A stretch of DNA of 38,491 nt from an uncultured Bacilli bacterium (lineage in GTDB: Bacteria; Bacillota_I; Bacilli_A; RF39; UBA660), in NCBI GenBank assembly GCA_944329445.1, contig CALVIH010000007.1, positions 1-38,491 on the forward strand, given 5' to 3'. A program made the translations under genes and the position numbers. This document shows, in pieces, positions 1 through 25,866 of the stretch. How positions within the stretch are numbered: the first letter of the stretch is position 1; each line of letters starts with the position of its first letter. The notes under the pieces are model-generated. The model ran no database searches. It saw only the letters and a program-made list of their open reading frames with translations, and was not told where the DNA came from.

Positions 1-170
1 ATGTCTTCTTCTACTCTGAACGTTGCTTCTCCACTTATTTTTAAATCTTGGTTTATCGCTGCATATCCTACGGTTAATGATAATATAAATATACATACTA
101 ACAAGTAAAGCATCATGTTTATTTTATTTTTTGACGTTCTCTTTAGGTTCACCCTTCTTAATTTTTTCAC
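1..170 (-). CDS. Exported TasA/SipW-type surface protein, C-terminus cut by window edge
   Basis: Only the N-terminus is inside the window; the gene runs off base 1. From a GTG at 168-170 it reads a Lys/Arg-rich segment, a hydrophobic helix (LLVCIFILSLTVGYAA) and then INQDLKISGEATF. The helix ending in a small-residue site, followed by a Gly-Thr/Glu-Ala beta strand, is the layout of signal peptides of SipW-dependent TasA-like proteins, three more of which lie in this window. The start is uncertain: GTG 168 has AAAGG 11 bp upstream, while ATG 116 would give a shorter signal peptide but has no clear ribosome site. It has its own promoter with a poly-G spacer at 209-238. Function is unknown; surface or matrix protein is inferred. 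Confidence 0.55.
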   Translation of the reverse strand, partial: MKKLRRVNLKRTSKNKINMMLYLLVCIFILSLTVGYAAINQDLKISGEATFRVEED

Positions 171-5890: not shown

Positions 5891-5924
5891 ACACCTTTTA
5901 GAACATCACAACAAAGAAAGGTGT
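5891..5924 (+). promoter_or_regulatory. Leader hairpin that would sequester the sigG ribosome site and start
   Basis: ACACCTTT (5891-5898) is perfectly complementary to AAAGGTGT (5917-5924), with an 18-nt loop. The right arm contains the only SD-like AAAGG and the first bases of the GTG start of sigG. On the minus strand the same hairpin is followed by a run of T, so it may also stop antisense transcription towards ylmC. Confidence 0.6.
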
Positions 5925-6708
5925 GATTATTATAGCAAAACACAAAGTAGAAATAACAGGAATAAACACGAGTGAAATAAAAGTTTTAACGGATAAAGAA
6001 AAAGAAGAACTTTTTATAAAGTTAAAAAAAGGAGATCAAAAAGCAAGAGACCTACTTGCTGAAGGAAATTTAAAATTAGTACTTTCAATTCTAAAAAAAT
6101 ACCAAAATAGAACCGATAACATGGATGATTTGTTTCAGATTGGTTGTGTTGGCTTAATGAAGGCAATAGATAACTTTGACTTAAACCACGGGGTTAAATT
6201 TTCAACCTACGCAGTACCATTAATATTAGGTGAAATAAGAAGATACTTAAGAGATAATAGTAACCTTAGAATATCAAGAAGCATAAAAGATTTGGCTTAT
6301 AAGATTCTAAAGGAAAAAGAAAATCACTTTATGGACACCGGAAAAGAACTTACTAACGAAGCCGTCGCAAAAAAACTAGGAGTAGATGAAATAGACGTAA
6401 TTGTTGCCCTTGATGCCATGAGGGATCCAATAAGCATGTTTGAACCAATTTATAATAATGGTGGAGATACAATCTACTTAGAAGACCAAATTGAAAACAT
6501 TAAAGAAAAAACATCTAATTGGGATTTAACGATATCCATTAGCGACGCAATAGATACGTTAAAAGAAAAAGAAAGAAAGATAATTACAGAAAGATTCTTA
6601 ATCGGCAAAACCCAAATGGAAATAGCAGAAGAAATAGGTATTAGTCAAGCTCAAGTATCAAGGCTTGAAAAAGGAGGAATTGATAACATAAGAAAAAAAA
6701 TTTTATAG
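5923..6708 (+). CDS. sigG: RNA polymerase sporulation sigma factor SigG
   Basis: 261 aa, sigma-70 family, late forespore regulator. The N-terminus (KHKVEITGINTSEIKVL) matches the SigG-specific box (NKVEICGVDTSKLPVL in Bacillus). Region 2 has DDLFQIGCVGLMKAIDNFD and FSTYAVPLILGEIRRYLRDN; region 4 ends with GKTQMEIAEEIGISQAQVSR, nearly identical to Bacillus SigG. The annotated GTG start (5923) is only one base from AAAGG, so initiation may be inefficient or use a neighbouring non-AUG codon (ATT 5929 or ATA 5932). The start lies in the right arm of a hairpin. The sigE/spoIIGA genes that normally precede sigG are not here. Confidence 0.95.
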   Translation: MIIIAKHKVEITGINTSEIKVLTDKEKEELFIKLKKGDQKARDLLAEGNLKLVLSILKKYQNRTDNMDDLFQIGCVGLMKAIDNFDLNHGVKFSTYAVPLILGEIRRYLRDNSNLRISRSIKDLAYKILKEKENHFMDTGKELTNEAVAKKLGVDEIDVIVALDAMRDPISMFEPIYNNGGDTIYLEDQIENIKEKTSNWDLTISISDAIDTLKEKERKIITERFLIGKTQMEIAEEIGISQAQVSRLEKGGIDNIRKKIL

Positions 6709-25077: not shown

Positions 25078-25105
25078 CGAAAAAAAGAACCAAAAAGGTT
25101 CTTTT
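25078..25105 (-). terminator. Terminator of TasA-like gene 3
   Basis: Minus strand AAAAGAACC-TTTTT-GGTTCTTTT followed by T. Confidence 0.88.
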
Positions 25106-25115
25106 AAAATATATC

Positions 25116-25760
25116 TTATTCTTGCACAAATTCAAGTGTTATTTCATCTTCAAAAGTTCTTTGTTCTTTTGATAAGTATTCAGATTCTGGTTTTATAGCA
25201 AACACTAACTTGCAATGTTTTGTCGTTCCTTTTTCAATAATATCATTTTTGGTTAGTTTCTCGTTCGTATCTACATCATATATCATGTAATCAAAATTTA
25301 AAATTAATGAATAATCATTAGCATTAATAGCACTATTTCCATCGAAATCATATTTTTTACATTCTTCCCAATTTGATGAAGACCCAATCGTGCCTGTACA
25401 GTTTCCATAACCATTCATAAATAAATTAGTTTTTAAATCAGTATTCAAAACAGCATCAATCGTCCCAGCATTTACTATATCAAAATAGTAAGTAACAGAA
25501 TCACCTGGTTTTGTAACCGACATATTAAGTCCACTTATCGTTGTTGCGTTTAACGTAGGTGATCCTTGAGCTTCGGCTCCTCCTTCTATATCCGGTCCGG
25601 TTAAATTTGCAAAGTGAATATCCCAACTTGCAGAATCAACTGATGCCGTTCCATTTATTGTTAAAGTTTGTGATAGCGCCGCAAACGCAACCGTAAGCCC
25701 TAATACTGCTACAACTAATGCTACAACAGTTAGTTTTCTTATTTTTCTTTCTTTTTCCAC
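25116..25760 (-). CDS. TasA/SipW-type exported protein with dockerin-like loop
   Basis: 214 aa, GTG start with AGAGGTG upstream. Signal region MEKERKIRKLTV...LTVAFAALSQ is SipW-type. SASWDIHFANL and DIVNAGTIDA match the two paralogues. Residues 138-149 (DFDGNSAINAND) are a dockerin-type calcium loop (acidic or Asn at 1, 3, 5, 12; Ile at 8), with Cys121 and Cys134 before it. The C-terminal strand is DEITLEFVQE. Most divergent of the three in the second half, nearly identical in the first 50 residues, suggesting diversifying selection on the exposed part. Its promoter contains G8. Confidence 0.8.
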   Translation of the reverse strand: MEKERKIRKLTVVALVVAVLGLTVAFAALSQTLTINGTASVDSASWDIHFANLTGPDIEGGAEAQGSPTLNATTISGLNMSVTKPGDSVTYYFDIVNAGTIDAVLNTDLKTNLFMNGYGNCTGTIGSSSNWEECKKYDFDGNSAINANDYSLILNFDYMIYDVDTNEKLTKNDIIEKGTTKHCKLVFAIKPESEYLSKEQRTFEDEITLEFVQE

Positions 25761-25794
25761 TTTTACACCTCTACTTTTTACTTTTTCTATGTTG

Positions 25795-25822
25795 ATAATA
25801 TCAAATATCCCCCCCCGGTCAA
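25795..25822 (-). promoter_or_regulatory. Promoter of TasA-like gene 3 with G8 spacer tract
   Basis: TTGACC (25822-25817), 16-bp spacer beginning G8, TATTAT (25800-25795). The -10 lies in the palindrome TTGATATTATCAA. Back-to-back with the plus-strand promoter at 25838. Confidence 0.8.
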
Positions 25823-25837
25823 TGTTTTAAAAAAAAG

Positions 25838-25866
25838 TTGATAATTATTTACGTTTTTTATATAAT
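25838..25866 (+). promoter_or_regulatory. Promoter of the second small RNA candidate
   Basis: TTGATA (25838-25843), 17-bp spacer, TATAAT (25861-25866); close to consensus. Its -35 is 15 bp from the -35 of the divergent TasA-like promoter. Confidence 0.8.

Follow-up and report, generated by a model that had tools for sequence, protein, structure and literature searches.

The promoter analysed here lies on the minus strand of the window (the whole stretch of 38,491 nucleotides), with yqeH upstream and radC, mreC and mreD downstream. Read from position 25822 to 25795, its layout is TTGACC-GGGGGGGG-ATATTTGA-TATTAT. The -35 element TTGACC (25817-25822) is followed by a homopolymer of eight G (GGGGGGGG, 25809-25816), which we propose to be a slippery switch, by the remainder of the spacer, ATATTTGA (25801-25808), and by an extended -10 element, TGATATTAT (25795-25803), whose hexamer TATTAT occupies 25795-25800 and whose TG is found at 25802-25803. 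The -35 and -10 elements are separated by 16 bp. This arrangement is as the initial annotation described it, and it places the G tract between the -35 and -10 elements, as in Neisseria meningitidis porA and Treponema pallidum tp0126. Moreover, a box, TTATCAACT (25836-25844, minus strand), starts 22 nt 5' of the -35 element and is the divergent form, in the window, of a box that reads TTTTCCACA in the genus. Transcription probably starts near position 25788. The ORF, which is real, begins 35 bases from the promoter with a GTG start codon and the ribosome-binding site AGAGGTG; it extends over 25116-25760 on the minus strand and encodes a surface protein of 214 aa, whose N-terminal segment is of the SipW type. 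Directly 3' of it is an intrinsic terminator, a hairpin with a T-run (25083-25105, minus strand; -10 kcal/mol, z -2.6). With this hairpin in place, the gene probably forms a monocistronic unit that is separate from radC and mreCD.

The protein had previously been called TasA-like. Its predicted structure consists of an N-terminal helix and a beta-rich domain (pLDDT 79.5), for which a fold search gave no significant match (TasA fibre at E=0.3). The protein scores 14.7 bits (E=0.028) against PF12389, the camelysin/TasA profile, which is below the curated cut-off of 22.5, and a search of the NCBIfam profiles yielded no match. By these profile cut-offs it is not a member of the TasA/camelysin family. 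What survives of the label is a weak match at the superfamily level, and the profile of the protein's own family weakly matches the archaeal bundling-pilus protein AbpX (E=0.0016). The protein may thus be, at most, a TasA-superfamily-like surface protein, a remote relative within a TasA/camelysin/AbpX superfamily.

A second copy of the promoter scaffold is found at 209-238 of the window, also on the minus strand. It comprises TTGACC, the interrupted tract GGGGGAGGGGGG, ATATGG and TATTAT, with a spacer of 18 bp. Behind it, at 1-170 (minus strand), is the start of a similar surface protein that runs off the window and whose N-terminus (LSLTVGYAAINQDLKISGEATF) is like those of other proteins driven by such promoters. 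The tract at 25809-25816 is the sole G8 of the whole window. The earlier statement that it is extremely unlikely by chance does not hold for the tract alone, since a G8 also turns up in 16 of 100 sequences obtained by dinucleotide shuffling of the window; its placement, however, is beyond chance. The genome under study (G000; 1.17 Mb, 59 contigs) has 12 distinct tracts of G8 or longer, 11 of which sit in TTGAC-Gn-TAT[AT]TGATATTAT-like promoters, one of these being cut by a contig end, and the control patterns described below yielded no match in the family. Two more scaffold copies in this genome, including the one at 209-238, have broken or short tracts. The window promoter is one of about a dozen in its genome; others are at C1:70773, C4:16737, C5:5628, C6:20451, C9:3659, C12:23015, C15:18985 and C50:3025. 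The sole G8 tract of the genome outside the scaffold (G000:C12:7935, locus L105) lies just 5' of a gene whose 693-aa product is built from repeats of a SANT/Myb-like or helix-turn-helix type.

We searched for this promoter type in related genomes. In the genus, where TTGAC is kept throughout the scaffold and the -10 region TGATATTATNAACA is conserved, the pattern TTGACN{8,30}TGATATTATNAACA has 101 matches, spread over 15 of 18 genomes, and the reversed pattern has one. In the family, TTGACN{0,6}G7N{0,16}TATWAT is found 156 times in 23 of 117 genomes, corresponding to 22 of 116 genera or about a fifth of those sampled, with a maximum of 46 copies per genome; neither the reversed pattern nor a poly-C version has a single match in the 117 family genomes. 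The flanks vary by genus, for example TTGACAACT-Gn-TTGAGATATAAT and TTGACGT-G9-TAGTTTTATAAT, and across genera the tract is invariably located between the -35 and -10 elements and is invariably G on the sense strand. In a sample of 295 genomes of the phylum, matches besides our own are confined to three other genomes, of which two belong to one other family (f7) and one is weak. Within family f7, 5 of 116 genomes carry the promoter, each as a single copy. Finally, a scan of IMG/VR for phage carriers gave 20 scattered matches that resemble background, and no host strain variants.

The genes behind these promoters are mainly those of surface proteins. An N-terminal hydrophobic signal or anchor segment is present in 110 of the 127 driven ORFs, compared to 22 of 43 ORFs of the window. 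They largely belong to dispersed paralogous families with SipW-type N-termini, and their Pfam and NCBIfam matches include camelysin, BsaA/TasA-type, PARCEL repeat, LRR and Ig-like surface proteins as well as WXG100 proteins; as with porA and tp0126, the promoters thus precede genes for surface-exposed or host-interaction proteins. In the genome under study, a G11 promoter (G000:C6, locus L101) precedes an operon with four WXG100 proteins, a DUF4176 protein and a very long coiled protein, a type VII secretion operon that may be phase-variable. The first gene of the WXG100 operon has a poly-G promoter in genome G012 (G9) and an interrupted one in genome G014. The L101 operon also encodes a small protein without a Pfam match, for which the N-terminal sequence hints at a ubiquitin-like fold. 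Further units of this genome, each driven by a G10 promoter, are an operon of a GNAT protein plus an ABC transporter, membrane proteins with a 'GRPS' N-terminus and zinc-ribbon membrane proteins. PARCEL-repeat (TIGR02167) proteins are otherwise known from mycoplasmas and Listeria; at loci L228-L232 of genome G005 poly-G promoters precede surface proteins of this type.

Tract length varies. The tracts of the 126 sites that were fetched comprise G7 (2 sites), G8 (24), G9 (71), G10 (21), G11 (7) and G12 (1). In 8 of 22 within-genome site pairs with identical flanks (16 nt upstream and 20 nt downstream) the G length differs, and three copies of one promoter in the genome, which share 31 identical upstream nucleotides, have tracts of G10, G11 and G10. 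Moreover, the syntenic promoter after yqeH in the relative G016, whose YqeH is 84% identical, has G9 where the window has G8; from its position it is probably the orthologue of the window promoter. As in porA and tp0126, the differences between copies and between relatives carry the spacer through 17 bp. The spread is narrow in genome G012, where 25 of 28 fetched sites have G9. Such narrow lengths in some genomes could reflect constraint, and within a species the tract length may be fixed. MutS is present in the genome and in 109 of 117 relatives. Mismatch repair is thus retained, which counts against a switch, and hypermutation through its loss can be dismissed as the driver of tract change.

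To compare spacers we used D, the distance between TTGACN and the -10 element. At the same loci, the spacers of generic promoters cluster sharply at D=17, with 16 sites compared to 2-5 at other lengths. Genus scaffold copies with pure runs of at least seven G have D=16 in 46 of 77 cases, 17-18 in 18 and 14-15 or 19-20 in 13, whereas 20 of the 24 copies with interrupted or G-poor spacers fall at D=17-18. The contrast at D=17-18 (18/77 versus 20/24) is significant by Fisher's test (p=2e-7), for unique strings (p=7e-5), by within-genome permutation (p=5e-5) and also after removal of the three richest genomes (p=0.004). A caveat to these statistics is that paralogues of one genome are not independent. 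Among 58 unique poly-G spacers from 20 other genera, for which the -10 element was assigned by the best hexamer, D peaks at 16 and 19 and equals 17 in only 4; their difference from generic promoters (Fisher p=4e-5) is conservative because the generic background was not subtracted. This is the pattern expected of a slipping tract, which leaves slippery copies scattered and mostly off the optimum and copies without a repeat frozen where they still work. Alternatively, a G-rich spacer might be functional at D=16, which would account for this being the most frequent length, and the extended -10 element may lower the promoter's sensitivity to spacing.

We consider it highly likely, from these comparisons of sequences, that the tracts mediate slipped-strand phase variation of sigma-A promoters. 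The initial annotation had proposed this for the window protein, and the proposal gains comparative support from the unequal lengths in pairs with identical flanks, from the G8 of the window against the G9 of G016, from the much higher frequency of spacers away from the 17-bp optimum among pure than among interrupted tracts, and from the predominance of surface proteins. The G8 tract would then be the length-variable spacer of a phase-variable promoter, in which replication slippage would add or remove single Gs, so that the -35/-10 distance passes through its optimum (17, perhaps 18 bp) and the surface protein would toggle between high and low expression. With a spacer of 16 bp, one G short of 17, the assembled window allele is predicted to be low or OFF and a single +1 slip from ON. 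The copy at 209-238, with its 18-bp spacer and broken tract, is therefore predicted to be locked ON. Jointly, such promoters would let cells express random subsets of a repertoire that comprises surface proteins, a sigma factor and the operon for type VII secretion, and the comparative data strongly suggest that cells reshuffle their coats at random by gain or loss of single Gs. We infer that slippage acts within one strain and alters transcription, and that the benefit may be evasion of immunity or of phages.

Alternatively, the G tract might not be a switch: in a promoter that is either constitutive or regulated, it could serve as a fixed element, recognised as sequence or as DNA shape by a repressor, an activator or a sigma factor, and its length differences would reflect slow drift. 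We regard this as unlikely, although several observations speak for it. Slippage alone does not explain why the sense strand always carries G and in none of the 117 genomes C, and some genomes have narrow length modes. Moreover, a TTTTCCACA-like box lies within 45 nt of the -35 element in 57 of 76 genus scaffold sites, compared to 1.4% of random 45-mers, and at most genus sites it has a fixed position 22-24 nt before the -35 element. The box resembles the DnaA box TTATCCACA, and in genome G093 a DnaA-box-like box directly adjoins the -35 element. However, with tract lengths of 7 to 12 the spacers span 14-22 bp, a range that would not be expected of a fixed element, and scaffold copies without G runs or with broken ones exist, at 17-18 bp. 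A fixed spacer element does not predict the split in D between pure and interrupted tracts either. The conserved box at its fixed distance makes it probable that, on top of the poly-G switch, an additional trans-acting regulator is at work.

We consider it very improbable that a dedicated sigma factor governs these promoters as its regulon. A candidate would be a 742-aa sigma-70 protein (regions 1.2, 2, 3 and 4 matched), which is itself encoded behind a G8 promoter in the genome under study and has poly-G promoters in three species (G000 with G8, G011 and G008 with G10). But genera that lack poly-G promoters have extended sigma factors just as often, the matches listed include none from poly-G-rich genomes such as G097, and the -35 and -10 boxes fit ordinary sigma-A. 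We reject the regulon because, among the matches listed, the sigma factor and the promoters do not co-occur across genera. Sigma-70 factors in frames of about 650 to 1422 aa are widespread in the family (G122:C21, G125:C12, G024:C6, G029:C1 and others), mostly with long C-terminal extensions, and occur independently of poly-G promoters. In the window, 5923-6708 (plus strand) weakly matches sigma-70 region 3, which suggests another small sigma factor. Finally, an assembly or sequencing artefact (poly-G dark-cycle calls) has a negligible probability: the genomes are short-read metagenome assemblies in which several contigs end at or near tracts, but the tracts are internal, have conserved promoter boxes on both sides, recur in dozens of independent genomes, are always on the sense strand and have zero reversed controls, which refutes an artefact as the source of their existence, exact lengths apart.

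The proposed slipped-strand phase variation of the poly-G promoters can be compared with known systems. In Bordetella fim, the length of a promoter homopolymer sets expression, and in Mycoplasma the vlp and vlhA lipoprotein families are switched by promoter repeats, poly-A or GAA. The promoters described here resemble vlp and vlhA in that promoter repeats in related small-genome bacteria would produce random combinations of many surface proteins; they differ from them in having poly-G and SipW-type proteins. Unlike in Neisseria opc and Bordetella fim, where poly-C lies near or overlaps the -35 element, no poly-C version was found here in the 117 family genomes. In opc, promoter homopolymer length likewise sets expression (PMC3960869), and a constitutive FetA promoter with an engineered, fixed 17-bp spacer follows the same principle (PMC4577077). 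N. meningitidis porA shares with our promoters the poly-G between -35 and -10, the outer-surface protein and a spacing of about 17 bp that decides expression, and a spacer below 17 abolishes its transcription (PMC7864442). In contrast to porA, a single locus of a Gram-negative bacterium, the scaffold described here occupies many loci, which share an upstream box, and belongs to a low-GC lineage of Gram-positive type. T. pallidum tp0126 and tprE/G/J/L are similar in that several surface-protein genes per genome have promoter poly-G tracts of 7-11, mostly 9; 17 nt is the optimal spacer for tp0126, and the tprL tracts have 7-11 G, most of them 9 (PMC7864442). Unlike in the tpr genes, where the tract lies by the start site, all sites here are in the spacer, with up to 46 per genome. 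The mechanism is thus already known from porA and tp0126; the lineage and the scale appear to be new to us, and searches of open-access literature found no report of such promoters in RF39-like bacteria. The order RF39 (Bacilli) is a tentative placement of the genome, suggested by small, AT-rich genomes and by a very large family made up of uncultured genera.

A more far-reaching reading is that a combinatorial switch operates across the lineage. A single scaffold, composed of the TTTTCCACA box, TTGAC, poly-G and TGATATTAT, would have spread in reduced gut-type bacteria to dozens of genes that are unrelated to each other and serve the surface, secretion or regulation; nearly all copies would be maintained one slip from ON, so that a clone would keep sampling random states of its coat, type VII secretion and sigma factor, and an additional regulator would bind the box. 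We hold this tentatively, the conjunction of all its parts having slightly less than an even chance.

Slippery promoters at 16 bp and broken, locked ones at 17-18 bp together amount to a natural experiment on promoter spacing. Metagenome assemblies would hide such switching because each locus appears in them with a single tract length. If phase variation by these tracts is real, it would account for variable expression of surface proteins and of the type VII system, and a large group of uncultured, host-associated-type bacteria would use homopolymer slippage to diversify its surface, with up to 46 promoters in 1.2 Mb, an extent otherwise seen mainly in pathogens.
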